Positions 2,861 through 58,826 of a stretch of 64,000 nucleotides of DNA are shown here, in pieces. The translations under genes were made by a program, and so were the position numbers. How positions within the stretch are numbered: position 1 is the stretch's first letter; the number at the start of each line of letters is the position of its first letter. The notes under the pieces are model-generated. The model did not search any database, was not told the DNA's origin, and was given only the letters and a program-made list of their open reading frames with translations. The stretch spans positions 4,926 to 68,925 of the forward strand of contig JAAVDA010000005.1 of the NCBI GenBank assembly GCA_014802045.1, given 5' to 3'. Origin of the DNA: Bacteroides sp. (GTDB lineage Bacteria; Bacteroidota; Bacteroidia; Bacteroidales; Muribaculaceae).

Positions 2861-2875
2861 GGTGGGGAACAGGGT

Positions 2876-4972: not shown

Positions 4973-5008
4973 TATCTGAAACGTTAAGTATATTATTCAT
5001 TCTTGAGT

Positions 5009-5179: not shown

Positions 5180-5187
5180 TGGTCATT

Positions 5188-5634
5188 ATGGAAAATAACC
5201 TTTCACCCGTAGCGCTCTGCTCCGACCATGCCGGATATGAGCTTAAAAGCATCATCGAAGGCTATCTTGCCTCAAACGGCATAGCCGTGAAGGATTTCGG
5301 CACCAATTCAGCCGACAGTTGCGATTATCCCGACTTTGCCCATCCGGCGGCTTTGGCCGTGGAGAGTGGCGAATGCCCGATTGGAATAGCCATGTGCGGC
5401 ACCGGCAATGGTATATCGATGACTCTCAACAAGCATCAAGGCATCCGCGCGGCTCTCTGCTGGGCTCCGGAGCTGGCCAAACTCGCCAGAGAACACAATA
5501 ATGCCAATGTGCTCGTGCTCCCCGCGCGCTTCATCGACCCGGTGGTGGCTCTCAACATAGTAGATACTTTCCTCTCCACACCTTTCGAGGGGGGACGCCA
5601 CGAACGCAGAATAGAGAAAATTCCCGCAAAATAA
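5188..5634 (+). CDS. rpiB: Ribose-5-phosphate isomerase B
   Basis: Interconverts ribose 5-phosphate and ribulose 5-phosphate in the pentose phosphate pathway (cytoplasm). 148 residues, the usual size. The N-terminus has the phosphate/substrate loop CSDHAGYELK; the catalytic-cysteine segment is MCGTGNGISM; the C-terminal GRHERRIEKI is also typical. A GTG at 5179 would add three residues but lies within the promoter element, so the ATG at 5188 was chosen. The exported peptidase gene follows 26 bases downstream and may be co-transcribed. LacAB-type isomerases are the nearest alternative but the GTGNG motif fits RpiB. Confidence 0.95.
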   Translation: MENNLSPVALCSDHAGYELKSIIEGYLASNGIAVKDFGTNSADSCDYPDFAHPAALAVESGECPIGIAMCGTGNGISMTLNKHQGIRAALCWAPELAKLAREHNNANVLVLPARFIDPVVALNIVDTFLSTPFEGGRHERRIEKIPAK

Positions 5635-5660
5635 CACCCTAATCTCTTACCGATCATTAC

Positions 5661-7061
5661 ATGAACCGCCACATTCTTGCTGCCGCACTGATAGCTGTTG
5701 CGGCATCGGCAGCCGTCGCCGCCAATCCCAAGGGGGGCATCACACCCGAGATGCTTCCGAAAATCAAGCAGGCATATCAGGGCACCGCAGCCGACAAGGC
5801 TATCCACAATGCCATATCAAACAACGATATCAACAAGCTCGCCATCAACACCGATGCGCGCAACTCTTTCGACACCCACTTCTCACACCGTGTGCCCTCC
5901 AAAGGAATCACCAACCAGCGCTCTTCGGGTCGCTGCTGGCTCTTCACAGGGCTCAATGTGCTGCGTGCCCAGATGATGAACGAGCATAACCTTCCACGCA
6001 TAGAATTCTCGCAGAACTATAACTTTTTCTTCGACCAGCTTGAGAAAGCCAACCTCTTTCTGCAGGGCATCATCGACACTTCAGACCGTCCGATGGAAGA
6101 CCAGACCGTAGACTGGCTCTTCAAGAATCCTCTGGGCGACGGAGGACAGTTTACCGGAGTGGCCGACATCATCACAAAATATGGCGTTGTGCCATCAGAC
6201 GTGATGGTTGAAACTTATTCGTCAAACAACACCTCGCGCATGAGTAATCTCATCGGCCTGAAGCTTAAGGAATATGGTCTGGAACTGCGCGACCTCGCAG
6301 CAAAAGGTACCAAACCCGCCGCACTTGCCGACCGCAAGACCGAGATGCTCGGTCAGGTGTATCGTATGCTCGCTCTAAATCTCGGCGAACCTCCCACAGA
6401 GTTCACCTGGGCACGCAAGGATTCCAAAGGCAACCCGGTTGAAGAACCCCGCACCTACACTCCCCAGCAGTTCTACAAGGAATATCTTGGCAATGACCTG
6501 CGCAATGACTATGTGATGGTGATGAACGATCCCAGCCGTGAATACTACAAGGTGTATGAAATCGAATATGACCGCCACACCTACGACGGCGACAACTGGA
6601 AATACGTGAATCTCCCCATCGAGGATATCAAGGAGATGGCTATCGCATCTATCAAAGACTCCACAGCAATGTATTTCTCATGCGATGTGGGCAAATTTTT
6701 CGACCGCGATCGCGGCGTGCTCGATGTGGACTATTATGACTATGGTTCGCTTTTCGGCACCACTTTCGGAATGGACAAGCGTCAGCGCATCCTCACCCAC
6801 TCCAGCGGCTCATCTCATGCCATGACTCTCGTGGCCGTTGACCTCGATAAAGACGGAAAACCGAAGAAATGGATGGTGGAAAACAGCTGGGGACCCGGTG
6901 CCAACGACGGCCACCTTATAATGACCGACCCGTGGTTTGACGAATATATGTTTCGCCTGGTGCTCAACAAGAAGTATGTCACCCCCAAGGTTATGGAACT
7001 TCTCAAGCAGAAACCGATATTGCTCCCCGCATGGGATCCCATGTTCTCGGCCGACATCTGA
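5661..7061 (+). CDS. Exported C1-family aminopeptidase (bleomycin hydrolase/PepC-like)
   Basis: 466 residues with a signal peptide (MNRHILAAALIAVAASAAVA), so unlike cytosolic PepC it is predicted to act in the periplasm or outside. The papain-fold catalytic residues are all present: Gln86 and Cys92 in NQRSSGRCWLF, His in SSGSSHAMTLVAVD, and Asn in ENSWGPG. Family members are hexameric peptidases that trim peptides from the N-terminus. The C-terminus is WDPMFSADI; the last residues of bleomycin hydrolases act in substrate positioning. It follows rpiB by 26 bases and is ended by a GC-rich hairpin at 7091-7122. Confidence 0.92.
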   Translation: MNRHILAAALIAVAASAAVAANPKGGITPEMLPKIKQAYQGTAADKAIHNAISNNDINKLAINTDARNSFDTHFSHRVPSKGITNQRSSGRCWLFTGLNVLRAQMMNEHNLPRIEFSQNYNFFFDQLEKANLFLQGIIDTSDRPMEDQTVDWLFKNPLGDGGQFTGVADIITKYGVVPSDVMVETYSSNNTSRMSNLIGLKLKEYGLELRDLAAKGTKPAALADRKTEMLGQVYRMLALNLGEPPTEFTWARKDSKGNPVEEPRTYTPQQFYKEYLGNDLRNDYVMVMNDPSREYYKVYEIEYDRHTYDGDNWKYVNLPIEDIKEMAIASIKDSTAMYFSCDVGKFFDRDRGVLDVDYYDYGSLFGTTFGMDKRQRILTHSSGSSHAMTLVAVDLDKDGKPKKWMVENSWGPGANDGHLIMTDPWFDEYMFRLVLNKKYVTPKVMELLKQKPILLPAWDPMFSADI

Positions 7062-7090
7062 TTATAAACCCCACGTATAAACCTATAGCC

Positions 7091-7122
7091 CACCCCTGCC
7101 ACTCATACTCTCGGCAGGGGTG
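7091..7122 (+). terminator. Hairpin after the C1 peptidase gene
   Basis: A perfect 10-bp stem (CACCCCTGCC/GGCAGGGGTG) with a 12-base loop, followed by ACTCTTATC. The weak U-tract makes it a moderate terminator. It separates the peptidase gene from the ThiF-like gene. Confidence 0.6.
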
Positions 7123-7147
7123 ACTCTTATCAACTAACACCATCTCT

Positions 7148-7891
7148 ATGAATGCCATCCAGACTCTCACAGATGAAGAGCGGCAGCGCTATGCCCGCCA
7201 TCTCAATCTGCCCGGTTTCGGCGAAGAGGCCCAGATGAAGCTCAAGGCCGGAAGCATACTTGTGGTTGGCGCAGGAGGCCTCGGGTCGCCGGTGTGCATG
7301 TATCTCGCGGCCGCCGGAGTGGGACATATCGGTGTGGCCGATGGCGACACCGTGGATATCAGCAATCTTCAGCGCCAGATAATCCACACCACCTCAGGAA
7401 TCGGAAGCCCGAAAGCTCTATCGGCCGCCGAGTCCATGCGTGCCCTAAATCCAGACATCACCGTTACTCCCCTCCCCGATATGCTGACTGCCGACAATAT
7501 AAGCACGGTAATAGCAGACTATGATTTTGTGGTAGACGCTACCGATAGTTTCAAGGCTAAATTTCTTATAAACGACGCCTGTGTGAGTGCCGGCAAGCCC
7601 TATAGCCATGGAGCGATATGGCGCTATGAGGGGCAGACCATGACCGTGGTGCCCGGCTCGGCTTGCTACCGCTGCCTCTTCGACTCCGAGCCCGACACTT
7701 CAACCGCCATGGGGCCGCTTGGAGCCACCGCAGGATTGCTCGGCACGATTCAGGCTGCCGAAGCTATAAAATATCTCACTGCCACGGGAGAGCTTCTCAC
7801 AAACAGGCTGCTCCGCTTCAACGTAGCCACCATGCAGTTTTCCACCATCACTCTCTCACCCTCCCCCTACTGCCTCCACCACCATGCTTAA
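7148..7891 (+). CDS. ThiF/MoeB/HesA-family E1-like adenylyltransferase
   Basis: 247 residues, the size of MoeB/ThiF. These enzymes adenylate the C-terminal glycine of a ubiquitin-like sulfur carrier (ThiS or MoaD) for thiamine or molybdopterin synthesis. Seen: N-terminal RYARHLNLPGFG, nucleotide loop VVGAGGLGSP (39-48), DGDTVDISNLQRQ (66-76) with the catalytic Arg and Gln, and the first zinc pair CYRC (173/176). The usual second CxxC near the C-terminus is altered: the protein ends PYCLHHHA, so Cys242 with following histidines may complete the metal site. No thiS, moaD or other cofactor gene is adjacent, so the partner is unknown. No TAnnTTTG box is visible in the 25 bases after the preceding hairpin. 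Confidence 0.85.
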   Translation: MNAIQTLTDEERQRYARHLNLPGFGEEAQMKLKAGSILVVGAGGLGSPVCMYLAAAGVGHIGVADGDTVDISNLQRQIIHTTSGIGSPKALSAAESMRALNPDITVTPLPDMLTADNISTVIADYDFVVDATDSFKAKFLINDACVSAGKPYSHGAIWRYEGQTMTVVPGSACYRCLFDSEPDTSTAMGPLGATAGLLGTIQAAEAIKYLTATGELLTNRLLRFNVATMQFSTITLSPSPYCLHHHA

Positions 7892-7917
7892 GAAGCGGCA
7901 AAATTGGAAATTTTGTG

Positions 7918-7925
7918 TAATTTTG
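7918..7925 (+). promoter_or_regulatory. -7 promoter element of the cvpA-suf operon (TAATTTTG)
   Basis: TAnnTTTG match seven bases before the cvpA ATG. No other promoter element was noticed before sufB, sufC, sufD or sufS, so this may drive the whole five-gene unit. Confidence 0.6.
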
Positions 7926-7932
7926 CATTGAA

Positions 7933-8466
7933 ATGAGTGGAATCGACATAATTATCGCGATTATTTTTGTCGGAGGCCTCATAATAGGCTACCGCAAAGG
8001 AGCTTTGCGTCAGATTGGCTCAATAGGCGGTGTGGTGGCCGGCCTTGTGGCATGCCGCATGGCCGGCGAACGAGCCACCGCACTCGTTGCATCGCTCTTA
8101 GGGGGCGACCTGCCCGGCGGAGCATCGATGACAGAAACTACCGCCCATGTGCTGGGCTACGGAGCTTTGTTTCTGGCTGTGTGGTGCGGAGTGTGGGTTA
8201 TAGCCCGGATGCTTCGTAAGGCCACTCATGCCATGTATCTCGGGCCGGTAGACGGAGTGGCGGGCTCCCTGTTTTTAGCAGCCAAATGGATGGTTGTTGT
8301 CAGTCTGGTGCTCAACCTCTGGAAACTTATTGACCCCGACAGCATGCTGTTCCGCTCCTCCAAGCTGGCCGGAGGAGCCGTGTTCGACTCCATTATGCAA
8401 CTCACCCCCCGCATCCTCGGATTTTTGCAAGAGGCTGCAACCAACCATCAGCTCACATTGTTGTAA
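7933..8466 (+). CDS. cvpA: CvpA family inner-membrane protein
   Basis: 177 residues with about four hydrophobic segments (roughly 3-25, 28-50, 68-90, 105-125). The N-terminus matches the CvpA/colicin V production family pattern: [19 protein letters not shown] followed by [13 protein letters not shown]. Homologues are integral membrane proteins linked to envelope homeostasis; the exact role is unknown. It lies five bases upstream of sufB and shares its promoter, an arrangement with no obvious functional link to Fe-S assembly. Confidence 0.85.
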
Positions 8467-8471
8467 CTGAC

Positions 8472-9944
8472 ATGAAGGACCAAGAAAAGGACATAGAGAA
8501 AGATCTCTCCGCGCACCATGAAGAAATCATCGGCTCGGGAGAATATAAATATGGTTTCCACACCGATATCGACACCGATATTCTCGAACGCGGGCTCAAC
8601 GAAGATGTGATCCGCTTCATATCGGCTAAGAAAGATGAACCGGAATGGCTGCTTGAATTCCGGCTCAAGGCCTACCGCTACTGGCTCACTCTCGAAATGC
8701 CCCGGTGGGCTCATCTAGACATCCCGCCGATAGATTATCAGGCCATCAGCTACTATGCAGCTCCGGTGCAGAAGGCCGGTCCGAAAAGCATGGACGAGGT
8801 AGACCCTCAGCTCATCGACACTTTTAATAAGCTCGGTATTCCCCTGCAGGAGCAGAAACAACTTGCGGGGATGGCTGTCGACGCGGTGATGGATTCGGTG
8901 AGTGTCAAAACCACCCACCGCGAGAAGCTCGCCGAGATAGGAGTGATATTCTGCTCCATATCCGAGGCTGTCAAGGAACACCCCGAACTTGTGAAGCGTT
9001 ATCTGGGTTCGGTTGTGCCTCCACGCGACAATTATTTCGCGGCGCTCAATTCGGCAGTGTTCTCCGACGGCTCGTTTGTCTACATCCCAAAAGGTGTTCG
9101 CTGCCCGATGGAGCTCTCCACCTATTTCAGAATCAACGCCGGAGGCACCGGACAATTCGAGCGCACCCTCATAGTGGCCGAAGACGATTCTTATGTGAGC
9201 TACCTCGAAGGCTGCACCGCCCCGATGCGCGATGAAAACCAACTCCATGCCGCAATAGTTGAGATTGTGGTGGAAAACCGTGCAGAGGTGAAATATTCCA
9301 CCGTACAAAACTGGTATGCCGGCGACAAGGACGGCCGTGGAGGCATCTATAACTTCGTGACCAAACGTGGCCTCTGCCGCGGACGCGACTCAAAACTCTC
9401 CTGGACTCAGGTTGAAACCGGGTCGGCAATCACATGGAAATATCCAAGCTGTGTGCTGGCCGGCGAGGGTTCGACGGGCGAATTTTATTCGGTGGCCGTG
9501 ACCAACAACCGTCAGCAGGCCGACACCGGTACAAAAATGATTCATCTCGGCTCAAACACCCGAAGCACCATCGTGTCAAAAGGCATTTCGGCCGGACATT
9601 CGCAGAATTCCTACCGCGGCCTCGTAAAGGTAGCTCCCGCTGCCAAGGGGTGCCGAAACTACACCCAGTGCGACAGCCTGCTTCTCGGTCCCGACTGCGG
9701 AGCCCATACATTCCCTTATATCGATGTGCTCAACGACACCGCCATAGTGGAACACGAAGCCACCACATCGAAAATCTCCGAAGACCAGATTTTCTATTGC
9801 AATCAGCGCGGCATCCCCACCGAAGAGGCCGTAGGCCTAATCGTGAACGGCTATGCTAAAGAGGTGATGAGCAAGCTCCCGATGGAATTTGCCGTCGAGG
9901 CTCAGAAACTCCTGCAGATCACACTCGAAGGGAGTGTAGGCTGA
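8472..9944 (+). CDS. sufB: Fe-S cluster assembly scaffold SufB
   Basis: 490 residues. SufB with SufC and SufD forms the SufBC2D scaffold that builds Fe-S clusters in the cytoplasm. The long right-handed beta-helix core is recognisable from [40 protein letters not shown], and the C-terminal [19 protein letters not shown] segment followed by [13 protein letters not shown]. Conserved cysteines of the GCTAP and [11 protein letters not shown] segments are present. It begins five bases after cvpA; sufC follows after 58 bases. The order sufB-C-D-S matches other Bacteroidetes. Confidence 0.97.
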
Positions 9945-47654: not shown

Positions 47655-47728
47655 GGTCCGGTAGCTCAGCTGGATAGAGCATCTGCCTTCTAAGCAGACG
47701 GTCATGCGTTCGAGTCGCATCCGGATCA
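47655..47728 (+). tRNA. tRNA-Arg (anticodon TCT)
   Basis: Cloverleaf read by eye: acceptor GGTCCGG/CCGGATC (one G-U pair), D-arm GCTC...GAGC, anticodon stem TCTGC/GCAGA with loop CTTCTAA (anticodon TCT, reads AGA), variable region, T-arm ATGCG/CGCAT with loop TTCGAGT. The discriminator is A and CCA is not encoded. A terminator follows directly. Confidence 0.97.
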
Positions 47729-47731
47729 CAT

Positions 47732-48185: not shown

Positions 48186-48193
48186 TATCTTTG
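48186..48193 (+). promoter_or_regulatory. -7 promoter element of the leader/ncRNA (TATCTTTG)
   Basis: TAnnTTTG. No other element of this kind is seen between here and the GTPase operon at 48584. Confidence 0.6.
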
Positions 48194-48199
48194 TGACCG

Positions 48200-48486
48200 G
48201 GTTCCGACATTAAAGCTCCCATCGGGAGCACTCCGGAAAGAGTTCCGAGTTTCAACGGACGAATCCACGCAAAAGGCATCTTGCCGATAGTTCTCAATTT
48301 CGAAATCGCCAAAATAGTAGAAACAAGCAGACGGACTCTCGACGAAGAATGCCCACTTTATATATCCGTATATGCACCGCCATATCAGATATAGACGTGG
48401 GGCCAATTTCTTCAAGTCTTGTTTGTTATGGTGTTTGGCGATACCTGAAATTGAAGGACGTGACGCAGATTAGCCTCACGTCTTTT
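48200..48486 (+). ncRNA. Candidate structured RNA or attenuating leader of the GTPase operon
   Basis: About 290 bases between a promoter element and a terminator. Local stems can be read: GCTCCC-atc-GGGAGC, CTC-c-GGAA/TTCC-GAG, and GGT...ACC around GTTTGGCGAT. It ends in GACGTGA/TCACGTC plus TTTT (48457-48486). Within it lies a 63-codon frame (48349-48540) that reads through the terminator stem, so coding is unlikely. The sequence resembles, from memory, an intergenic element seen repeatedly in Bacteroidales. It may be a free small RNA or control read-through into the GTPase genes. Function unknown. Confidence 0.5.
48457..48486 (+). terminator. Terminator or attenuator upstream of the GTPase operon
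   Basis: A 7-bp stem GACGTGA/TCACGTC with a 12-base loop and TTTTGCGTTTT. The following 97 bases to 48583 hold no visible TAnnTTTG box. Confidence 0.6.
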
Positions 48487-48583
48487 GCGTTTTATATACC
48501 TCCATCAAAATATAACTCACCCTATATAATACCACAATAACTTCTACCTCAAAGAAAAACGAATCCCATATAAACGGTTAGCT

Positions 48584-49684
48584 ATGAATCAAGACAATAT
48601 CAAACGACAATTCGAACAAGACTTCGAGCAGGCAAAGAAATCTATCGGCCGTCCCAACATACTGCTCATCGGAAAAACCGGTGTGGGTAAAAGCACACTT
48701 ATCAACACCATCTTCGGAAAAAAACTGGCCGATATCTCTCATACAAAACCTCAGACAAGAGGCTTCCATAAATATTCATCACCCAATCTACCCGTCAACA
48801 TAATAGACAGCGAAGGATACGAACTCGGAAAAGAACAGTATTTTCTAACTCAGCTCAAAGAATACATTTCCTCCCACCACGCTGATATAAAAGAGCAGGT
48901 GCACATAGCTTGGTATGCCCTGAGCGTATCATCCGGAAGAATCCTCGATTTTGACCTTGAGGTAATCTCAGTGCTCAAACAGTCTAAGATTCCTACTACT
49001 GTAGTTTTCACACAGTGTGATCTTGATGATGTGGATGGAAGTGCTGCCAAAGCGATGAGCAACATCGTCTATAAGAGATTCAAAGATACCGTTCCTTGCT
49101 TTGAGACAAGCAACGACCCCGAACTCAACAAGACTCTCGACATCGATGCTCTTGTGGAATGGTCGGCTGATAATATTAACGACGAAAATCTACGTTCCGG
49201 ATTCATCGCGTCTCAATGCGCATCACTGAATCTAAAAAAAGAATCAGTAGATAAGTGTATACGTATATATGTAGGTCTGGCAGCTGGAGTTGCCGTGTCT
49301 CCAATACCGGTGTCTGATAGCATTCTACTCATGGGGTTACAGACAAAAATGGCAGCGGATATATATTCCAAATATGGAATCGACACCTCGACATCCGATT
49401 TAATCCAGCAAATGATAAAAAATAATCTTGTCAGCATAATCGGAAAAATGGCAGCCGGTAATCTGATAAAGATGATACCTATCATCGGCTCATGGGTCGG
49501 AGCGGGGATCAATGCACTTGTAGCAAGCTCCATTACCTATGGATTGGGACAAACCATCTCCTACATGTGCCGCAGTGCAATAAAATCTGCCTGGAAGGGA
49601 GAGCCATTCCAGCCCATCTCCGACGAAGCTTTCAAAAAGATGGCCGACCAATTCACCAAAGAATATAAAGAAAAGAATCAATGA
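48584..49684 (+). CDS. P-loop GTPase with DUF697-like membrane-associated tail
   Basis: 366 residues. GTPase motifs: G1 GKTGVGKST (30-38), G3 DSEG (75-78), and G4 TQCD (143-146), an unusual variant of NKxD. The C-terminal half has hydrophobic segments (about 230-255 and 290-330), and the stretch VSPIPVSDSILLMGLQTKMA fits the DUF697 pattern of YcjX-like GTPases. It is probably a membrane-linked switch or dynamin-like protein. Its stop overlaps the next GTPase gene by four bases (ATGA). AT-richer than its neighbours, suggesting acquisition. Function unknown. Confidence 0.78.
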   Translation: MNQDNIKRQFEQDFEQAKKSIGRPNILLIGKTGVGKSTLINTIFGKKLADISHTKPQTRGFHKYSSPNLPVNIIDSEGYELGKEQYFLTQLKEYISSHHADIKEQVHIAWYALSVSSGRILDFDLEVISVLKQSKIPTTVVFTQCDLDDVDGSAAKAMSNIVYKRFKDTVPCFETSNDPELNKTLDIDALVEWSADNINDENLRSGFIASQCASLNLKKESVDKCIRIYVGLAAGVAVSPIPVSDSILLMGLQTKMAADIYSKYGIDTSTSDLIQQMIKNNLVSIIGKMAAGNLIKMIPIIGSWVGAGINALVASSITYGLGQTISYMCRSAIKSAWKGEPFQPISDEAFKKMADQFTKEYKEKNQ

Positions 49685-51285
49685 CCCACTACGGTAACAC
49701 CAACGGTGCATTTACTTATCGCCGAAACATCCTCAACATGGTTGTTGTCGGTCAGTCCGGCGTGGGAAAAAGTTCATTCCTGAATTATGTCGCAGACAAA
49801 GACTACTTCCAGACCGGTGTAGGAGCGGCTGTCACCAAAGGATATTTTCATACATATGAGACCAAACGCAATAATGTGTCCTACGCCCTCTATGACACCG
49901 AAGGTCTCGAACCCGGTAAGATTGACGACTGGGAAAAGAATATCCATTCCGAAATCAAACGCCGGGACGCTTCCACAGATATGTCCGATTGGTTTCACTC
50001 CGTTTTATTCTGCATAAGCGCAGAATCAAAACGGGTGCAGCCTTTTGAAATTGAGGCTATACGGCGCATGGCTTCAACAGGTCATGTCATTGTTCTCCTG
50101 ACAAAGATGGACAAAGTGAGTCCATCAGTGCTTGAAGATATGAAGACTGAGATTCACAAGCAGATTGGAGATCAGATTGACATATTGGCGGTATGTAGCG
50201 TGGCCCAGAAATTCCGCAACGGAACAGAGAGCCACAAGCAGGGGCTTGATGCTGTTCTAAAAACCACTTTTATCGGACTGTGGAAAAAAATGGCGATGAT
50301 GGTTCCGCCAATACTTCTGAGAAGTATTATATCATACCACGGCACCATAGAGTATTATGAGAGAGTCAGCTCATTTATATCATGGAATATAATCAACGGT
50401 ATTGCTAATTCGAAAAATTCAATGATTTCGATGTCCGCACTATGCCAAAAGCTCGGCTTGGATATGAATTCAATCTCCAGTAGCACGGTTATTCCTATCT
50501 CACGTTTTCGCGCAGCAAGCAAATTTGACTGCAACATGTGGAAACCAGATGATACCATTCTTTGGAAACCAGATGATACCATTCTTATTTCAGGTGACTT
50601 CAACTATAGATCCATCTTAGACCTCCCTTTCACCCCATCTAAAAGCATCTTGGACTGGGGATTGTTCAGAGCCGGCCTACACTCCGCTATAATTAAATAT
50701 GCCTCTTTTCGTACTCAGCTGCTATCTGAGTTGAAAGCATTTAATGTCATATCCAAATTAAATTCATTGACCGCCACAATCAATGTTTGCAAGAGACTAT
50801 ACTTTGATGTCACAGGAGAGACTCTCAAGAAAGAGGTCTCAATGCATGATATCAAAAAGACGTTGGACGGATTAAAATGCCTTTCTGAAGAAGATGATCA
50901 ATTGACTCGCCAGATAGACAAAGTGAAATCTGCTATCAGGGATGTTGATTCTTGCACCTTTTTCAGTAGCACGGAAAGAGATCGATTGATTGAAGAGTAT
51001 AGTCAGCTTAAGGAATCGGTTGATAAATTTCGGAGTGAATATGCCGAGAGACTTACTGCCGTCATTAATTCCATAAAACAGGAATTGCGCAGCTTTGCCG
51101 ATTATATGCTAAGACACGAAGAAAAGCATAAGTGTACTCTTGAAATCGACAAGGACGATTTATCACAATTCCTCAGATTAGTCAGAGCTACAATGACTGA
51201 GTCGGATTGGACAAATCTTATGGTGAAAATGTATGGCCATGGCTTGTTTGAAGACTATGTAAAGGAGATGATTACCCGTATCTAA
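49681..51285 (+). CDS. Second P-loop GTPase with C-terminal coiled coil
   Basis: 534 residues. G1 GQSGVGKSS (24-32), G3 DTEG (72-75), G4 TKMD (141-144): a canonical GTPase core (about 15-210) unlike the first in sequence. The C-terminal half is helical; about 395-480 is charged and coiled-coil-prone (DDQLTRQIDKVKSAIRD, EEYSQLKESVDKFRSEYAER), as in dynamin-like or septin-like proteins. Residues near 287-302 contain a perfect eight-residue duplication (WKPDDTIL twice). Coupled to GTPase 1, so the two probably act together. AT-rich. Family not recognised. Confidence 0.75.
   Translation: MTHYGNTNGAFTYRRNILNMVVVGQSGVGKSSFLNYVADKDYFQTGVGAAVTKGYFHTYETKRNNVSYALYDTEGLEPGKIDDWEKNIHSEIKRRDASTDMSDWFHSVLFCISAESKRVQPFEIEAIRRMASTGHVIVLLTKMDKVSPSVLEDMKTEIHKQIGDQIDILAVCSVAQKFRNGTESHKQGLDAVLKTTFIGLWKKMAMMVPPILLRSIISYHGTIEYYERVSSFISWNIINGIANSKNSMISMSALCQKLGLDMNSISSSTVIPISRFRAASKFDCNMWKPDDTILWKPDDTILISGDFNYRSILDLPFTPSKSILDWGLFRAGLHSAIIKYASFRTQLLSELKAFNVISKLNSLTATINVCKRLYFDVTGETLKKEVSMHDIKKTLDGLKCLSEEDDQLTRQIDKVKSAIRDVDSCTFFSSTERDRLIEEYSQLKESVDKFRSEYAERLTAVINSIKQELRSFADYMLRHEEKHKCTLEIDKDDLSQFLRLVRATMTESDWTNLMVKMYGHGLFEDYVKEMITRI
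50539..50586 (+). repeat. Exact 24-bp tandem duplication in GTPase 2
   Basis: The unit starting TGGAAACCAGATGATACC occurs twice in direct tandem with no mismatch and keeps the frame, adding eight residues. Confidence 0.9.
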
Positions 51286-51313
51286 ATATTTTTAATACCG
51301 TCCTAAATCAACT

Positions 51314-51673
51314 ATGATTGTTCGAACAGAAAAAGAATTTGAGAAGGCACTCGAAAACAAAGAGCCTAAAATCATTTATGAAGGCCCTGAAGCAGAGAAG
51401 ATAGTTGCTAAAATTCAGGCCGCGGAGAAAAAACGCTCCCGCACTAAGAAGTGGGGCATAGGCCTCGGTATCTTATGCATCGCCGCAGCCCCATTTACAG
51501 GCGGAGGTAGTCTATTGGGACTCGGAGCTACCGCCGGCGCAATAGCTCTCTCAGAGGGAGTAATAATAGCTATTATTGGGGCGGTAGTAAGTATATCTGT
51601 GGCTGCTATCAACGCCATTAAGGAATATAAATTAGAACAAGAAAGAAACCGACTTATTCTGACACGTAAATAG
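51314..51673 (+). CDS. Small glycine-rich membrane protein of the GTPase operon
   Basis: 119 residues. A charged N-terminus (MIVRTEKEFEKALENKEPKI) is followed by two hydrophobic, glycine/alanine-rich segments (about 48-78 with APFTGGGSLLGLGATAGAI, and 82-100) and a basic end. No signal peptide. Begins 28 bases after GTPase 2. It could be a membrane partner or effector of the GTPases (inference). Family not recognised. Confidence 0.65.
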   Translation: MIVRTEKEFEKALENKEPKIIYEGPEAEKIVAKIQAAEKKRSRTKKWGIGLGILCIAAAPFTGGGSLLGLGATAGAIALSEGVIIAIIGAVVSISVAAINAIKEYKLEQERNRLILTRK

Positions 51674-51678
51674 AATCT

Positions 51679-51888
51679 ATGATTATAATCGACGGAGAAG
51701 AACTAAAACTTGAATGCAAGAGCTGCGGGCAGCGCTACACCCACATCGTAGGTTATGGCCCGATGGCTCCCAGTCCATGGTTGCGCAGACAGCAGCTCAA
51801 GAATAATCCACCTGTTTGCCCGCGCTGTAAGTCATCGCTATATAAGAGACGGACATTTTTAGACAGTATTCTGGACTTCTTCAAATAA
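51679..51888 (+). CDS. Small zinc-ribbon protein
   Basis: 69 residues with two CxxC pairs: CKSC (about 13-16) and CPRC (about 47-50), 30 residues apart, the classic zinc-ribbon arrangement. No further domain. Begins five bases after the membrane protein gene, so almost certainly in the same operon. May bind nucleic acid or a protein partner. Confidence 0.7.
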   Translation: MIIIDGEELKLECKSCGQRYTHIVGYGPMAPSPWLRRQQLKNNPPVCPRCKSSLYKRRTFLDSILDFFK

Positions 51889-51909
51889 CCACTCCTGATT
51901 CTTCACACT

Positions 51910-52449
51910 ATGATTAACACTCATAATTCAGGTGCCCATTTCACCACGCCGCACATCTCTGACGGGGATGTGCCGGCGGGGTCGGGCGGAATAAATCGCG
52001 AGGGCTACACCTACGGTCAGCTGAGGCGGATGCCGATCATACCGGAGGTGATGCGCGGTGTGACAGACCCGGTGGTGAGACGCTGGGCCGAGGAGTGCAA
52101 CGCACGCAATCGCGCAGGCTTCGTGATGAGAAAGACCGACGGAGAGTATTGCTTCGATGGTCTCCACGTAGGCCCGAAAGTCAGGCTCCCCGACAAAGAC
52201 GCACTCCAGCGCAAGTTCGGCCGCATGCCCTCGGCGGCCGAAATCCGTGAGGTGTCATACTCCTTGCTTCGTGAGGAGATTGCCAGGCAGACCGGGCTGA
52301 GTGTGACCAAAGCAGCATCCGCAATCGGTAATATGCTCGACTGTGTGCCACACGAAGATATCTCCGGATGGGTTTATATGGTACCCAATTGGGCGCATAA
52401 ATGGTTTCGCCATCGAGGCTACGTCTCCCGCATTCTGGGCGAGGAATAG
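51910..52449 (+). CDS. Hypothetical protein with HNH/EndoVII-like C-terminal motif
   Basis: 179 residues. The first 130 residues show no recognised domain. The end carries the spacing D144..H148-E...G153...MVP(157-159)...H163....H168-R-G170, which resembles the treble-clef HNH/EndoVII (LHH/WHH-type) nucleases with their pattern G-x-V-x-LVP-xxx-H-xxxx-H-x-G. The motif is short and partial, so nuclease activity is only a hypothesis. It begins 21 bases after the zinc ribbon, on the same strand, and ends at a palindrome shared with the convergent WYL gene. Confidence 0.6.
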   Translation: MINTHNSGAHFTTPHISDGDVPAGSGGINREGYTYGQLRRMPIIPEVMRGVTDPVVRRWAEECNARNRAGFVMRKTDGEYCFDGLHVGPKVRLPDKDALQRKFGRMPSAAEIREVSYSLLREEIARQTGLSVTKAASAIGNMLDCVPHEDISGWVYMVPNWAHKWFRHRGYVSRILGEE

Positions 52450-52465
52450 GTGAGCTGCCTATTCC
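52443..52465. terminator. Hairpin covering both convergent stop codons
   Basis: An 8-bp perfect stem GGAATAGG/CCTATTCC with loop TGAGCTG. It includes the stop codons of the HNH-like gene (52447-52449) and of the WYL gene (52459-52461), which lie nine bases apart. There is no long U-tract. Confidence 0.5.
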
Positions 52466-53382
52466 CCCCGGTAACGTTTCAATATCTCGCGCGCATGCCA
52501 TTCGATATCCTCTCTCAGCCACTGCGGGGAGAGGACTTCGGCATCGCCCCCCAGACGGAGCACCGCATGCTGAAACTCATACTCCGGACGGAGAGTAAAC
52601 TCATAGTCGGAATATTCGGCCGTAGACTCCACGCAACGCTGCGAGTTGTGCACCGGCAGTGCCTCAATATATGCACGCTGCGTGCCATATACCCTGAGCC
52701 TCACCGGCTGCACGCCGAAATCCTCATCCATGTTCACCCCTATTATATCTGAGAAATAGGCCTCCACATTGACCGAACTGTCACGCTTGAAAGTGTCGTT
52801 GCCTATACGGAGCGACGAAATACGGTCGAGTGAAAGCACCATGAGATATTTCGACCCCTGCCGCCGGCCTATCAGATACCATCGCCGGTCTGACTGCTTC
52901 AGCCCGTATGGTTCAACGACCCAATGCTTTTCGGCAGAGGAATTAAAGCGGAGATAGTCGATACTCACCACCCGGTCCTTATCCATCGCCTCTATTATCG
53001 CAGACAGATATCCGGTGTCGCCCAGTCCTCTTTCAAAAAAAATCCGGTCGGCCATATCTTTATTGGCCATCAATCTGTTTTCAATCGCCAGCCCGTTGAA
53101 GAGCCAGGAGGAGAAAGACGGCACAGACAGCTCCTCAACATTATCGATGTAGTAGACATTACCCTCAGACCTGCTGCACACTATATCCACACCGAATATA
53201 TCTGCCACAGCCTGCCGATGTCTGTGGAACGTGCGCTCCGGTATCTCCCCCTCGTCTCCGAGCCTGATGCCGCGCTCCTCCATCCACTTACGATTGATTT
53301 CCTCAATGGTCATTTTCCCACCGCGACGGATAGTATCAATGAGCCAGACATACCTCCTGATCAGTCTCACAGATGTTGCCAT
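52459..53382 (-). CDS. WYL-domain transcriptional regulator (first)
   Basis: 307 residues. An N-terminal winged-helix-like region (RRYVWLIDTIRRGGKMTIEE through PERTFHRHRQAVADIFGV) precedes a WYL ligand-sensing domain (about 130-210, RRWYLIGRRQGSKYLMVLSL followed by DRISSL). A C-terminal WCX-like extension follows (YEFQHAVLRLGGDAEVLSPQ). WYL proteins often control DNA-repair and phage-defence genes. Two bases after the stop of the small membrane protein gene upstream, so co-transcribed. A second WYL gene lies on the other strand. Confidence 0.88.
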   Translation of the reverse strand: MATSVRLIRRYVWLIDTIRRGGKMTIEEINRKWMEERGIRLGDEGEIPERTFHRHRQAVADIFGVDIVCSRSEGNVYYIDNVEELSVPSFSSWLFNGLAIENRLMANKDMADRIFFERGLGDTGYLSAIIEAMDKDRVVSIDYLRFNSSAEKHWVVEPYGLKQSDRRWYLIGRRQGSKYLMVLSLDRISSLRIGNDTFKRDSSVNVEAYFSDIIGVNMDEDFGVQPVRLRVYGTQRAYIEALPVHNSQRCVESTAEYSDYEFTLRPEYEFQHAVLRLGGDAEVLSPQWLREDIEWHAREILKRYRGE

Positions 53383-53885: not shown

Positions 53886-54803
53886 ATGTCAAAACTGCTG
53901 TTCAACCGATATATATGGCTGGTAGACACGCTCGACCGGGCGGGTCGGCTTGCATTTGAGGATATCGACATCCGGTGGCAGCACGCCACTTCGCTCAATC
54001 CGGAGGGAGAGCCGATGCCAAGGCGCACGTTCCACAACCACCGTCAGGCCATAGAAGAGATGTTTGACATCTCGATCGAGTGTGAGCGCACGGCTCCGTT
54101 CCGCTACTATATCGAAGACACATCCCGGCTGCGCGATAGCCGAGCTCGCGAATGGATGCTGAGCAGCTTCGCGCTCAACAATGCCCTCAACGAGCGCACC
54201 GAGCTCTCTCAAAGGATACTTCTCGAAGAGGTGCCCTCAGGACGCAAGTATCTCACTCCCCTGCTCGACGCCATGAACGATGGCGTGAGAGTGCGCATAA
54301 CCTACCGCAGCTATCGGCGCAACGACGAAACCACATTTGAAATCGAACCTTATTGCCTGAAGATGTTCAGGCAGCGGTGGTATGTGTTGGGTAGAAATCC
54401 ATATTTCGACACCCTCAGAGTCTATGCCCTCGACCGTATCCACGCTCTTGAGCATGCGTCCACCCGATTCCGCTATCCCGACGATTTCGACGCGGGAACA
54501 TTTTTCTCCGAATGTTTTGGCGTGACCTATTCTCCAGACGAAGAACCGGAAGAGATTGTGGTGCGCGCTTTCGGCATAAAGGCTGACTATCTGCGCAGCC
54601 TGCCTCTCCACTCAACCCAGAGAGAGATTGGATCCGCATCATCCTCGGCCGACTTCCGGCTCCGGGTGAGACCTTCCTATGAATTTATCCACGAACTGCT
54701 ATCCCACGGGAGCGAAATCAAGGTGATGTCGCCGCCATGGCTGGCCGACGCTATCCGAAATGAAGCTCTGAAGACGGCAGAGAATTATCTGAAATCCATT
54801 TAA
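53886..54803 (+). CDS. WYL-domain transcriptional regulator (second)
   Basis: 305 residues, clearly a paralogue of the first WYL gene: the same N-terminal frame (FNRYIWLVDTLDRAGRLAFE ... PRRTFHNHRQAIEEMFDI) and WYL segment (QRWYVLGRNPYFDTLRVYAL followed by DRI). It is transcribed the other way and is the upstream partner of the 1332-residue gene (24-base gap). It probably controls that gene or the whole locus (inference). Confidence 0.88.
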   Translation: MSKLLFNRYIWLVDTLDRAGRLAFEDIDIRWQHATSLNPEGEPMPRRTFHNHRQAIEEMFDISIECERTAPFRYYIEDTSRLRDSRAREWMLSSFALNNALNERTELSQRILLEEVPSGRKYLTPLLDAMNDGVRVRITYRSYRRNDETTFEIEPYCLKMFRQRWYVLGRNPYFDTLRVYALDRIHALEHASTRFRYPDDFDAGTFFSECFGVTYSPDEEPEEIVVRAFGIKADYLRSLPLHSTQREIGSASSSADFRLRVRPSYEFIHELLSHGSEIKVMSPPWLADAIRNEALKTAENYLKSI

Positions 54804-54827: not shown

Positions 54828-57800
54828 ATGGCAAAAAAAGACACCCAGCTTAAAGAGGGCCTCAAGATAAAACTTGAGGTTGTTGACGAGAATCCCCGTC
54901 ATTATATTGTGAAGTATGACGACCGGACATTTCCAATAAAGAAATTTGACTTTCAGAAACGACCGGGCACATCACGACCGCTTAATCTTCAATGTATTGT
55001 GGACCGCACCGACGGTCAACGCATATTTTTCAAACAAGACCTCGCCCCCGTATTCGCCGAACGATATAAAGTCGGACAGATTTATGATTTCACTGTAGAG
55101 GCCGACATGACCGGCGCCACCCGCCCCCACTATAAAGTGTCTGACGGCTCGGGCTATTGGCTTCCGCTTCCCGCCCACGATGGCGACAACCTCAACAAAG
55201 GCGACAGAGTGAAGCTCCGTGTCACCGCCATCAAGGGCATATATCTCGGACTCCGCCTGGTGAAAGACTATCTTCCCGCAGACTCCAAGGTGATAAAACT
55301 CGCCGACCTCGCCCAGCGCTTCGGCCTCCGGTTTCTCAGGCTCGTGGCTCAGTTGCGCCGTGCGGGTGCCCTGCCCGAAACCACTCAGCTCTACGAGGCC
55401 GACGACCGTCAGTGGGTGCTCACCGCTGCCGGCGAAGCCCGCGAAGCGATATTCAGTCTCGACAACAATATCGTGAGCCGCAACAGGCTGGCCGAGGGGG
55501 TGAAGGTGTTTCGCGATGCGCTCACCTACCTGCTCGAAGATTCAGGCTTTTTGCGCGACACCCCCGATGCCGCCCGCGGAACCATTCAGGAAGATCTGGC
55601 CCGAACCGTGTCGAGAGCCGACGACCTTCTCACCGCCCTGCAGCTCAAGGAGCATGAGCGCGAAAGATTCGTGAAAGAGACATTTGAGAAAATACGCCGC
55701 TCCGGCTATCTCTACCATCCCGAAAGCAAGCTCCGCACCCTGATGTATATCTTCTCTCTACGCTCCGACCTCATTGACCGCAAGATGGACGAGCTCATTG
55801 AAATCATACAGCAGGGCGACACCAACAACTGGAAGGCCGAACCCTTCAGAAGCGCATTCGTTGAGCAGCTCCAGCTGTATATCGACGCCAACCATATGCA
55901 GTTTGACACCGTGAGCGATGCCGAGAGCGACGGAGAAATCGCCGACCGGCTCGATCGCATGATTCGTGCCCTCGCAATCCAGCAGCTGCTCGAAGAAGAC
56001 ACCGATCTCAGCCAGGAAGCCCTCATCAACCGCTCGCGCCTCTACCGCTACTACGCGTTTATGAAACACGCCGAGCGCGACAAAATGCTCGAAAAATCAC
56101 TCCGAGTGCTCCTTAACGGCGACATAGAGTCGGGAGAATACTCCTGGTCAGATACCAAAGATGTGACCCGCCTCTCCCGCCGGCTGCTCCACGACCTTGA
56201 CCAACCCGTAGGCATACAGCGCTATGAAAGCCGCGGATGCATGATGCGCATTTCCGACAACCGTATATCGTTTGCCGCCGCCGACGATGCCGCTACCCGT
56301 GCTATCCTCCCCAACCTCAGCCTCTGGCACGACATCCAGGTCTATCTCCCCACCCTCCTGCCACCCGACTACCGCACCCCTCGCAGCATCAGCGACTACA
56401 AGGGCGTGTGGAGCGAGATTGAACGCAACCTTTTCCAGCCGCGCCGCAAGGAGCTCCCCGAAGAGAAAGTTGTGGTGGTGCCGCGCACCCGGCAGCCGGA
56501 AGTGGGAGAGAGCGTGGGCATACGCATAGACGATGTGAGCGAGGAAGACCCGCTGGTTTATGACTGCACCGTCGTGGAGACCGGTTTCACAGGCTCCGGC
56601 ACAATAGACGTGAAAGAGATTTCGGGTGCATCACGCGCCTTGCGCATCGAAGCGTTCCGCGACGAAAAGGGCCGGCCGATGGAATTTATGGCCAAAGTGA
56701 TCGGCACTGCCGACGACGGCACACTCCATTTCAGCATGACCGACGGCATCCGCAACATGCTCCGCGACAACATCGGGGTAGACGATGAGGTGAATGGTGT
56801 GATCAACAATGTTCCCTCCCCCCGCAACGGTTTCACATTCACTGCCCTCACAGAGCATGGCTATATCGTGAGCATCTCTCCCGACGAAACCACAAGCTCG
56901 CTGGTGTGCGGCTCTCAGATAAAACTCGTCATCACCGGATTTCTCGACAATGGCCGCATAATAAAAGCCAAATATATCGGTCCGAGCGACGATGAAGAGA
57001 TGGTGGAATACGAAAAATCTCTTGAAACACTGCTATTCACCTACGGACGCGAACTCCCCGACTCACCCCAAGAGTCGTCAGACGACGGCGGAGTAGACAC
57101 CTCCGACTCCGATTCAGACGAGCCTCTCACCGACGATGTGGCCCGCGAGGTGATGCACATCATAGCGCGCAGAGCTGATATGGACACCGACCTGGTGCGC
57201 TCCTACAACTATTTTGCAGCCGCACGCCTGCTCGCCCGCATGATTTCCGACAAGCCCGACGACCAGATGCGACTCTACTACGACCAGCGCTGCCGGGTGC
57301 TTGAAATCCTCGACGACTTCGCCACCAACGGTCGCATTGACCTTGAAAGCCTTTCGGCATTCAATGCCGAAATCATGCGTGGCTCCGCTTCCAACCCCTA
57401 TTCTATCAAGCTCAAGATTCTCGCTGCCATGGAGCGCCCCGAGCACACATCAAGCGTATGGGACATCGTGAGCAAGACAAACTCCGATGAAATTTCCCAG
57501 CTCGGACGCCTCGTGATTGCCTACAACGCTATCGACGGATTCAAACTCGGCGAGGAGCAGCGCAAAATCCGCGAACATATCTATTCGCTGCTAAAACTCG
57601 ACATAGAGCGACAGCCCGACCAGATAGCCGGAGGCATCGAATCGCAGACCGTAGAGTTCAAAACGTCAGCCGCCTACCCCGCCGGAGGAGTGATGAGGCT
57701 CGATGTGAAGCGACAGATGGCCGAACTCGTGCAGGTGATATGCGGATTCCTCAACTCTACCGGCGGACGCCTATATATCGGCGTGAGCGACGAAGGCTAT

Positions 57801-58826
57801 GTGCGCGGACTGGCCAATGACCTCGAACATTTCGGCTCGCTCGACAAACTGATGCTTGAGCTCCACAACTCCATCCATAAGCAGCTCGGATTCATTGCCG
57901 GATATGCCAACTATATCAATATCCAGCCCGAACACTATGGAGAGAAAACCATTGTGAGCGTAGATATAAAACCGCTCCCCACACCGGTGGCAGCCAATGG
58001 CATCTACTACGAACGCCAGGGCTCGTCTACAGAATATGTGCCTAAAGACAAAGAAGCCGAGTTTCTGCGCCGCCGCAACAACACCTTTGCACCTCCCCAC
58101 GCACCGGTGTATCAAACCGTTAAGACACCCGTGCAACAGGCCGACATTCCCGACGAACAGAAACCCTCTGCCCCCACTCCCACTCCCACTCCCACTCCCA
58201 CTCCCACTCCCACTCCCACTCCCACTCCCACTCCCGCGCCGGCCACTGTCAGCCAAAAGGAGAGCATTGCCACCTCACGGCTGCGTCGCAACTACCTCCA
58301 CTACGATGGTTCCAGCGACTTCCGTGCCCCCAACACCTATTTGTTTATAAATCTCGACGCATCCTACCAGATTTCGCAAGACGAACTCTGGACCGACGAA
58401 GACGCAGCTCTTGCTCTCGGTCTCACCGAAGAGGAAGCCGCCGGATCTGTTGTGGTGGTCTACACCTCAGGCCATGTGGCGAGAGTGAGCGTCGACTCCC
58501 TGTTCAAGTCGCGGCGTGCCAAACTCTCGGTAAAAGAGCCCATCGCATTCATCTCCCCGGTGAGCCAGACCGACGGGCTGCTCGTGTATTTCAAAGATGA
58601 GAAAGGAGTCATATTCAAGCAGTTCTTCACCCCCGAACAGATTCCAAACGCCAAACCGACCGACATGGGAGAGCGCATCATCCCGGGGCGCCCGATTCAA
58701 TGCGAGACCGTGTGTGCAGAATGTCAGTCGAACTTTGCCGCCATACAGCGCAACGGACAGAGAGTGGGACGCACCGCTTCCGAACTCCTGACCGACATCG
58801 ACGACTCCTACCGCCGTCTCGGATAA
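54828..58826 (+). CDS. Large OB-fold/AlbA_2-domain protein
   Basis: 1332 residues, no signal peptide. The N-terminus and about 80-140 (RVKLRVTAIKGIYLGLRLV) look like OB/S1-type folds, as do about 560-645 and 680-745. The middle is helical. About 935-1060 is an AlbA_2 (Schlafen/RecG-like) domain: ESQTVEFKTSAAYPAGG then LVQVICGFLNSTGGRLYIGV. A proline-threonine linker encoded by ten CCCACT repeats follows (1116-1136), and then a unique C-terminal domain of about 190 residues. Likely binds nucleic acid or nucleotides. Preceded by a WYL gene by 24 bases. The AlbA_2 family is common in defence-related proteins, but this architecture is not one I recognise. Confidence 0.75.
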   Translation: MAKKDTQLKEGLKIKLEVVDENPRHYIVKYDDRTFPIKKFDFQKRPGTSRPLNLQCIVDRTDGQRIFFKQDLAPVFAERYKVGQIYDFTVEADMTGATRPHYKVSDGSGYWLPLPAHDGDNLNKGDRVKLRVTAIKGIYLGLRLVKDYLPADSKVIKLADLAQRFGLRFLRLVAQLRRAGALPETTQLYEADDRQWVLTAAGEAREAIFSLDNNIVSRNRLAEGVKVFRDALTYLLEDSGFLRDTPDAARGTIQEDLARTVSRADDLLTALQLKEHERERFVKETFEKIRRSGYLYHPESKLRTLMYIFSLRSDLIDRKMDELIEIIQQGDTNNWKAEPFRSAFVEQLQLYIDANHMQFDTVSDAESDGEIADRLDRMIRALAIQQLLEEDTDLSQEALINRSRLYRYYAFMKHAERDKMLEKSLRVLLNGDIESGEYSWSDTKDVTRLSRRLLHDLDQPVGIQRYESRGCMMRISDNRISFAAADDAATRAILPNLSLWHDIQVYLPTLLPPDYRTPRSISDYKGVWSEIERNLFQPRRKELPEEKVVVVPRTRQPEVGESVGIRIDDVSEEDPLVYDCTVVETGFTGSGTIDVKEISGASRALRIEAFRDEKGRPMEFMAKVIGTADDGTLHFSMTDGIRNMLRDNIGVDDEVNGVINNVPSPRNGFTFTALTEHGYIVSISPDETTSSLVCGSQIKLVITGFLDNGRIIKAKYIGPSDDEEMVEYEKSLETLLFTYGRELPDSPQESSDDGGVDTSDSDSDEPLTDDVAREVMHIIARRADMDTDLVRSYNYFAAARLLARMISDKPDDQMRLYYDQRCRVLEILDDFATNGRIDLESLSAFNAEIMRGSASNPYSIKLKILAAMERPEHTSSVWDIVSKTNSDEISQLGRLVIAYNAIDGFKLGEEQRKIREHIYSLLKLDIERQPDQIAGGIESQTVEFKTSAAYPAGGVMRLDVKRQMAELVQVICGFLNSTGGRLYIGVSDEGYVRGLANDLEHFGSLDKLMLELHNSIHKQLGFIAGYANYINIQPEHYGEKTIVSVDIKPLPTPVAANGIYYERQGSSTEYVPKDKEAEFLRRRNNTFAPPHAPVYQTVKTPVQQADIPDEQKPSAPTPTPTPTPTPTPTPTPTPTPAPATVSQKESIATSRLRRNYLHYDGSSDFRAPNTYLFINLDASYQISQDELWTDEDAALALGLTEEEAAGSVVVVYTSGHVARVSVDSLFKSRRAKLSVKEPIAFISPVSQTDGLLVYFKDEKGVIFKQFFTPEQIPNAKPTDMGERIIPGRPIQCETVCAECQSNFAAIQRNGQRVGRTASELLTDIDDSYRRLG
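58173..58232 (+). repeat. Hexanucleotide microsatellite (CCCACT)10 in coding sequence
   Basis: Ten exact tandem copies, each coding Pro-Thr. Unit length is a multiple of three, so copy changes would vary the linker length without a frameshift. Confidence 0.95.

Follow-up and report, generated by a model that had tools for sequence, protein, structure and literature searches.

A candidate two-state leader RNA upstream of a two-GTPase operon and of other exchangeable accessory genes in Bacteroidales

We analyzed an operon of five genes located in a 64,000 bp stretch of the genome of Bacteroides sp. from the family Muribaculaceae [GCA_014802045.1; JAAVDA010000005.1], referred to below as the window; all positions are those of the whole window and the genes are numbered 1–5 in + strand order. 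Two of the genes encode different GTPases, and the operon was originally predicted to be an undescribed, possibly anti-phage GTPase system. The original prediction left out a promoter-like site and a putative structured leader RNA lying upstream of gene 1 (48186–48500). In our best explanation, to which we give a probability of about 0.55, an exchangeable accessory cassette carries the operon as its cargo, under the control of a candidate RNA attenuator. The leader is the more novel result. It is a putative structured RNA outside Rfam that probably acts as a switch and is associated with unrelated accessory genes both in chromosomes and in predicted viral contigs.

Over 362 bases, the sequence upstream of gene 1 shows 79% identity to that upstream of a gene 5 operon in another genus, and a 312 nt stretch containing the leader has a folding z-score of −5.07. 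Twelve leaders align on one structure composed of a closing stem (P1), a hairpin (P2), a long arm (P3) and a further hairpin (P4). In this fold 89.8% of the cells are paired and 11 pairs are changed on both sides. Covariation reached 0.210 vs. 0.116 in shuffled alignments, a value attained by none of 500 shuffles, and slid alignments gave at most 0.072; four of the five covariation measures exceeded all 500 shuffles. The inner stem of P3 differs in sequence among the 12 leaders yet stays complementary (−14.3 kcal/mol for matched vs. −8.8 kcal/mol for mismatched strands, p = 2e-5), and the same test with seven representatives gave 4 of 5040. Copies of the element diverge strongly and the P3 sequence varies; both core strands, (A/T)TCGCCAA and GTGTTTGGCGAT(A/G)C, were kept in 48 of 54 copies, the other six being off-pattern, and the letters flanking the core change jointly (GGTG...ACC or CGTG...ACG). 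Two results point the other way: the fifth measure (further pair types) was 18 vs. 18.5 in the shuffles, 395 of 500 of which reached it, and among 41 named pairs those of columns 101–175 and 102–174 form in two and in none of the 12 leaders, respectively. We regard the RNA family as almost certainly real. The conserved fold, the co-varying alternative pairing and the 5′ position are properties of the sequences themselves, from which we infer that the element would be transcribed, would switch and would respond to a signal.

None of the 4227 Rfam models matched the window element or the elements of 13 other loci at E ≤ 1; Bacteroidetes FopS RNAs were matched in two loci of the family, in line with its assignment to Muribaculaceae from gene content. 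Accordingly, 6S RNA and other catalogued RNAs were dropped as candidates. A retron non-coding RNA was also rejected, no reverse transcriptase gene being recognized by eye in the loci read. An open reading frame (ORF) at 48349–48540 crosses the window element, but the frame of the core differs between copies (by eye), and a conserved leader peptide was likewise rejected. A literature search did not find a description of the leader. An excerpt of a survey of human microbiomes reports thousands of candidate structured RNAs (PMC8040213), a set that may include it.

To describe the distribution of the element we used a covariance model (R1) built from the 12 closest copies, whose E-values are rough. 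R1 matches were revealed in 123 of 198 genomes of the family, at up to eight places in one genome, and in 35 of 178 genomes of the order (29 of 148 genera), 32 of these 35 lying outside the window's family. About 10 candidates per genome were scored, so that the copy numbers are lower bounds, and most of the genome matches were not viewed singly. Among stretches of IMG/VR viral contigs (predicted viruses) containing the core 16-mer GGTGTTTGGCGATACC, R1 found the element in 19 of 39, and phage-type genes were seen by eye near several of these copies; the CGTG...ACG form of the 16-mer occurred in eight viral-contig stretches, none with the element. In a control set of 48 other loci (702 kb together with the window), mostly from other phyla, as judged by title, and including viral contigs without a known host, only the window's own match was found at E ≤ 0.01. 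Searching plasmids and phages with the leader by blastn gave no match.

The inner 3′ strand of P3 has two pairing options, namely the 5′ half of P3 or the tail located ahead of a U-run. Both were analyzed in 30 copies, which remained from 54 elements after omission of six off the core pattern (the second copies in L138 and L139, and L167, L169, L201 and L203) and of 18 near-duplicates. For the halves of P3 the pairing energy was −28.7 kcal/mol within a copy vs. −16.0 kcal/mol between copies (permutation p = 5e-5), and 23 copies had their own partner as the best of 30. For the interior with the tail it was −27.7 within vs. −21.0 kcal/mol between copies (permutation p = 5e-5). A narrower test of the 3′ half of the interior with the tail gave −28.3 for matched, −19.8 for mismatched and −15.7 for shuffled tails, with p = 5e-5 within hand-drawn subtypes. 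At least eight of the same bases are used in both states in 23 of 30 copies, and 27 of 30 carry a U-run of at least four. With the 3′ half folded by itself, 24 of 30 copies have three or more of the six bases ahead of the U-run paired to the interior.

Several points weigh against such a switch. The copy's own tail was its best partner in only six of 30 copies and ranked third or better in 16 copies in the narrower test, and the permutation tests leave some relatedness in. Folded alone, the 3′ half of the window's leader favors the local P4 hairpin over the interior:tail pairing, and P4 also ends in TTTT; L122, L143, L148, L166 and L184 partly favor a local hairpin in the same way. Besides, P3 would form first during transcription, so that a trigger would be required. 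Given the position of P4 before TTTT, termination in the window could proceed by either hairpin; P1 or P3 would counteract it. Weighing these data, we consider it probable that the leader acts as a transcription attenuator, as its pairing pattern suggests. It resembles known attenuators in having two predicted exclusive pairings (supported over the 30 copies, not clearly in the window's own), a U-run and a 5′ position. It differs from them in having no known ligand or Rfam family and in preceding unrelated genes, and its termination is a predicted one.

The location of the element agrees with this role. The site TATCTTTG upstream of it fits TAnnTTTG, which we take to be the −7 promoter consensus of Bacteroidota. 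TAnnTTTG was present within 150 nt upstream in 34 of 40 elements, vs. a mean of 3.0 and a maximum of 8 in base-shuffled sequences. The next ORF lay on the same strand in 53 of 56 copies read (within 120 bases in 50 of them) and in 33 of 35 after dereplication; L126 and L206 were counted as misses partly through the ORF picker, which kept an overlapping ORF of the opposite strand. The upstream ORF was on the same strand in 31 of 53 copies. It should be mentioned that the sets used for the TAnnTTTG count and for the survey of cargo and lipoboxes contain some related copies.

The same observations bear on two other readings. The element might be a folded DNA site or mobile palindrome (a recombination site or similar to a miniature inverted-repeat transposable element) that moves the cargo, rather than an attenuator. 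It adjoins exchanged cargo, occurs on predicted viral contigs and is near-palindromic, with matches on the reverse strand; the conservation of the stem on both strands would allow a DNA-binding protein to recognize it. Recombinase and integrase genes near some copies, which also fit a mobile element, count against the attenuator: resolvase genes lie within approximately 2 kb of the leader in L151 (2281–2910) and L184 (3505–4302), and phage integrase genes in L174 (1966–3198) and L182 (2166–2753). These four copies slightly raise the probability of the mobile-element reading. We nevertheless find it unlikely in view of the same-strand ORFs that follow nearly all copies, the promoter-like sites, the 3′ U-run and the strong sequence divergence; in most copies read no recombinase was recognized nearby (by eye only). 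Still less likely, in our opinion, is that the leader yields a trans-acting RNA (a small RNA, antitoxin-like RNA or sponge) and that the cargo is served by readthrough. The promoter-like site and the terminator-like 3′ end of the element would suit such an RNA, whose core could bind a common partner; its 5′ linkage to unrelated ORFs and the variable sequence of P3 would not.

Returning to the attenuator, we examined the genes located behind it. Different cargo was found behind leaders that are 74–79% identical over long stretches, as well as behind more distant ones. When a loose pattern was applied, 17 of 52 first ORFs began with a lipobox-like sequence, and most cargo genes seen encode lipoproteins or unknown proteins rather than defence proteins, which counts against our best explanation. 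In L124 the genes behind a leader of the same family encode, among others, three Dynamin_N proteins (one having ankyrin repeats) and a protein resembling a zinc ribbon. Long operons follow the leader in L120, where the last long gene encodes a WHH-type protein (WHH 8.4e-5, just below the cut-off), and in L121, where the last one is of the WHH type by 87% identity; in L118 an LHH protein (2.2e-17) is encoded directly upstream of the leader, and the cargo of L018 consists of a 668 aa protein and gene 5. Among the predicted viral contigs, a gene for an HSDR_N protein stands behind the element in L196 (11415, after lysis-type genes), and in L187 (1359) the second gene after the element encodes a GmrSD_N protein.

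Some further observations were made on these loci. Two tandem leaders stand ahead of the cargo in L120 (10458–11025) and L121 (4168–4732), the second being weaker (51 and 48 bits). The L124 cassette (2318–9772, reverse strand) also encodes proteins of 217 and 137 aa, has LeoA/LeoBC matches in PADLOC and is a candidate system of its own. A cargo protein of 73–76 aa (HKVWEIVPKK or similar) recurs in L120, L121, L118 and L127, sharing the locus with an HNH/EndoVII-like gene in L118, L120 and L121, and a 72 aa protein in L018 looks similar to it. In L122 (4385–5069) and L126 (5070–6240, oriented) the genes behind the leader encode a short acidic peptide (GPDGEPLEFIEDI) and a membrane-type protein rich in glycine; in L126 the latter is a relative of the 119 aa protein of the window.

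The operon itself (Table 1) corresponds to the original prediction in its layout: all five ORFs lie on the + strand, with distances of −4, +28, +5 and +21 bases between successive genes. The claim that the block is AT-rich holds for genes 1–4 (GC content 0.40–0.45 in 1-kb windows) and not for gene 5, whose GC content (0.53–0.56) is host-like; nearly all 1-kb windows of the 40–60 kb region outside genes 1–4 have values of 0.47–0.60. WYL-type regulators had been described as flanking the block. In fact both are located downstream of it, and the upstream side is occupied by dapA and a tRNA-Arg gene.

Table 1. Coordinates of the leader, the operon and adjacent features in the window
Feature	Position	Strand	Basis
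Promoter-like site TATCTTTG	48186–48193	+	Fits TAnnTTTG
Putative structured leader RNA element (covariance model R1)	48266–48500	+	Fold, covariation, R1
5′ strand of closing stem P1; partner 48483–48490, which also contains the U-run	48267–48274	+	
Small hairpin P2	48275–48285	+	
Core strand ATCGCCAA; partner within 48430–48444	48305–48312	+	
Long arm P3 with co-varying stem; length and sequence variable	48313–48429	+	
Core strand GGTGTTTGGCGATAC	48430–48444	+	
Hairpin P4 followed by TTTT, terminator-like	48457–48486	+	
Gene 1, GTPase 1: G domain and DUF697 tail, 366 aa	48584–49684	+	ORF, Pfam
Gene 2, GTPase 2: septin/AIG1-like G domain, long C-terminal region, 534 aa	49681–51285	+	ORF, Pfam
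Gene 3, glycine-rich, probably membrane, protein, 119 aa	51314–51673	+	ORF, PHROG match
Gene 4, small zinc-ribbon-like protein, 69 aa	51679–51888	+	ORF; Pfam matches below cut-offs
Gene 5, HNH/EndoVII(WHH)-like C-terminus, 179 aa; seen elsewhere behind unrelated genes	51910–52449	+	
WYL-WCX regulator	52459–53382	-	Pfam
WYL-WCX regulator	53886–54803	+	Pfam
tRNA-Arg; gene order diverges from relatives after it	47655–47729	+	

Comparison with the same genus points to an exchanged segment. The same tRNA-Arg gene follows dapA in 10 of 12 same-genus regions, three of these ten (L219, L220, L227) spanning under 4 kb past the tRNA. No match to the window proteins from the 84 aa ORF (47879) to the 1332 aa gene was found in the 12 regions by tblastn (E ≤ 1e-6), and the segment past the tRNA-Arg gene differs in the seven regions compared (by eye). 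The tRNA-Arg gene after dapA thus represents a gene-order breakpoint within the genus (L218–L227). A weak R1 match lies at dapA in L221 (19.3 bits). Beyond the operon, a gene at 54828–58826, adjoining a WYL gene, encodes the 1332 aa protein with a run of PT repeats, for which there was no PADLOC match and only weak NCBIfam matches.

Both GTPase cores predicted previously were confirmed, each protein exceeding Pfam cut-offs. Gene 1 belongs to the DUF697 GTPase family (MMR_HSR1, 43.9 bits at a cut-off of 21.9; DUF697, 28.4 bits at 27.7), in agreement with the predicted DUF697-like tail. Gene 2 is septin/AIG1-like (Septin, 40.4 bits at a cut-off of 26.2; MMR_HSR1, 30.3 at 21.9; AIG1, 29.2 at 27). 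The motifs DSEG and DTEG, and TQCD and TKMD, seen by eye in the two proteins, are presumably their G3 and G4 motifs, respectively. Among solved structures, gene 1 matched septins, Der/EngB and IIGP-type GTPases, and gene 2 matched septins, Rab proteins and GIMAP7. The possibility raised earlier that these are ordinary ribosome-assembly GTPases was excluded: the best NCBIfam equivalogs were YsxC for gene 1 (42.6 bits, cut-off 124.45) and YlqF for gene 2 (31.1 bits, cut-off 208.2), and gene 2 is not universal in the family. Both GTPases also fell below the Dynamin_N cut-off of Pfam (20.0 and 19.0 bits at a cut-off of 27), and the PADLOC matches at the operon, of the LeoABC type, were partial and weak. 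By these cut-off tests the operon is neither a ribosome-assembly pair nor a Leo system. Gene 2 contains a perfect 24-base tandem duplication (50539–50586) that adds a second WKPDDTIL.

We then studied the distribution of the two GTPases. In plasmids, tblastn revealed gene 2 relatives in four records (29% identity) and gene 1 relatives in 78. The two GTPases are adjacent, in the order of the window, in both Acinetobacter/Klebsiella plasmids examined for the pair [NZ_CP096264.1; NZ_CP010355.1], where the gene 2 relative is only 233 aa long and sul2 lies behind it. In the faecal scaffold MT837011.1 (L012) a 388 aa gene 2 relative begins where a gene 1 relative ends; downstream follow a lipoprotein-like ORF and genes for HsdR, HsdM and HsdS (Pfam). 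A scan of genome contigs with a three-sequence alignment, in which pairs were called with local profiles, yielded at least 28 loci. Among the 28 listed, two, from two Exiguobacterium species, contained the pair in reversed order (a gene 2-type protein without DUF697 tail and a gene 1-type protein) and two (Vagococcus and a metagenome-assembled genome of Clostridia) contained two DUF697 GTPases side by side; the remaining 24 showed no pair within the DNA stretch examined. The neighbours differ from those of the window in all five other pair loci read (L006, L007, L012, L021, L022).

At E ≤ 1e-10 gene 2 was found in one of 198 family genomes, the window's own, and in none of the 197 others. In the phylum sample it matched three of 395 genomes, own included; the two other matches proved to be single DUF697 GTPases rather than pairs (short loci read). 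Gene 1 at E ≤ 1e-14 occurred in two of 296 phylum genomes, own included; its relatives were detected on at least 16 viral contigs and, without a partner, on an E. coli plasmid carrying phage-like genes. A genome-contig scan with gene 2 alone, and separate viral-contig scans with gene 1, query A1 and gene 5, gave no confirmed matches.

These data make it likely that the GTPase pair is a functional unit. Its role in defence is plausible from the families and neighbours, with odds slightly below even. The defence reading of the original prediction gains from the pair beside HsdR, HsdM and HsdS and from gene 1 relatives on plasmids and viral contigs; it loses from the weak PADLOC matches and from the Exiguobacterium pair, which sits amid ordinary chromosomal genes (by eye). 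A literature search found no description of DUF697 GTPases in defence. Alternatively, the GTPases could form a stress or housekeeping pair of membrane trafficking having no part in conflicts, as the chromosomal neighbourhood shared by the two Exiguobacterium species (by eye) would suggest; the patchy distribution and the presence of gene 1 relatives on plasmids and viral contigs make this somewhat unlikely.

The remaining genes behave differently from the pair. By eye, the 119 aa protein contains a hydrophobic stretch rich in glycine, so that the predicted glycine-rich character stands and its membrane nature is rated as probable; it matches phrog_25580 of unknown function (E = 1.5e-9). It was found in three of 149 family genomes, own included (the two others with E-values of 1.1e-6 and 8e-4), and not in plasmids. 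Two viral-contig matches, in which a short glycine-rich stretch lies within larger proteins, were taken as chance. For the 69 aa protein, claimed to be a zinc ribbon, all matches were to zinc ribbons and all were below the Pfam cut-offs. Gene 5, previously assigned a partial HNH/EndoVII signature, had no match in Pfam, PADLOC, NCBIfam or PHROG at E ≤ 0.1; the signature is backed by a motif, PHED..H..F.HRG, common to gene 5 and the L120/L121 proteins, and by a weak profile match of its HNH-like end (hhalign E = 7e-4, probability 26%, 37 columns), and would suggest nuclease activity. The AlphaFold model of gene 5 was set aside (mean predicted local distance difference test score 43.9).

Gene 5 was present in five of 149 family genomes, own included, with three long matches of 74–82% identity. 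In these three loci, from other genera, it follows non-GTPase genes (668 aa; 484 and 270 aa; 717 and 163 aa), and WYL genes are near it in two of the three; the gene 5 loci L019 and L020 show no leader, which counts against our best explanation. The copy in L018 (6762–7256) has an in-frame stop ahead of the HNH-like end. Genes 3–5 thus stand outside the two-GTPase unit, and gene 5 is probably from a different exchangeable set.

The predicted linkage therefore held in part: GTPases 1 and 2 are adjacent in distant lineages, and gene 5 and the 119 aa protein occur without GTPases. The complete set of five was found nowhere else among the loci and genomes examined. Hence we consider improbable a self-contained five-gene anti-phage system in which the GTPases sense and assemble and the membrane and HNH-like proteins serve as effectors. 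The close spacing of the genes, the AT-rich genes 1–4, the L012 pair with type I restriction genes next to it, and the leader of the same family before the dynamin-like genes (LeoA/LeoBC matches) and zinc-ribbon-like gene of L124 would fit it. It is opposed by the host-like GC content of gene 5, which follows other genes elsewhere, and by the occurrence of the 119 aa protein in only two of 148 other family genomes (G074 and G081); in G074 (L126), the one of the two that was read, no GTPase is nearby.

Comparison with known systems revealed partial similarity only. (i) DO-GTPase systems, as described in an excerpt of PMC7159879, contain one or two GTPases of the TRAFAC type located in mobile neighbourhoods, often with zinc ribbons and membrane components. 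They are defined there by the DO-GTPase family with GAP1 and GASH or FNIII partners, and the zinc ribbon of the window is a separate gene. (ii) The G domains of the window score with AIG1/GIMAP-septin-like GTPases (PF04548, PF00735), though low, and their tails are unlike those of the eukaryotic members. (iii) LeoABC (PADLOC) also comprises GTPases in small operons, with partial matches here and three Dynamin_N genes behind the L124 leader, whereas the window GTPases are below the Dynamin_N cut-off. (iv) WHH and LHH nucleases (PF14414, PF14411) of the HNH/EndoVII superfamily occur near leaders in L120 and L118, respectively, and gene 5 shares a motif with the L120/L121 proteins, yet has no Pfam match. 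(v) The rAID arrays of Bacteroidales, compared by their description in an excerpt of PMC12247911, likewise involve acquired AT-rich genes and conserved intergenic motifs; their tyrosine recombinase and co-oriented arrays of short genes were not recognized by eye at 45.5–56 kb of the window. Among Pfam matches of the eight locus proteins at E ≤ 0.1 there was no DO-GTPase or GAP1 name; we assume that Pfam holds such models.

Thus, it can be hypothesized that the cassette carries its own promoter-like site and a leader RNA of approximately 235 nt. In one state the long arm P3 would be completed, including the conserved ATCGCCAA/TTGGCGAT stem; in the other, in most copies, the inner 3′ strand would pair with the tail just before the U-run and form an intrinsic terminator, a function that the P4 hairpin before TTTT may serve in the window copy. 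The attenuator would set whether the cargo is expressed. The cargo would be a two-GTPase module, in which a DUF697 GTPase probably contacts the membrane and a septin/AIG1-like protein is its partner, accompanied here by the glycine-rich membrane protein and the zinc ribbon; GTP-driven assembly of the pair may sense infection or membrane damage and act at the membrane. The HNH-like gene 5 would have come from another exchangeable set.

More tentatively, the leaders may form a previously undescribed class of RNA switches that have two states and extend across the order. Bacteroidales and their temperate phages would share this class as a standard module for controlling the cargo they acquire (defence, moron and surface genes). 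A common trans-acting factor would then read the GUUUGGCGAU core, which is a loop in one state and a stem in the other. If the switch is shared in this way, one element would help to explain the silencing and activation of many acquired genes of Bacteroidales, including GTPase and dynamin-like cassettes, restriction-like morons and lipoproteins, and searches with its core, at the RNA rather than the protein level, could reveal new cargo, defence genes among it. The GTPase pair, for its part, represents a small and testable bacterial module of the septin/AIG1 type that may act in immunity.

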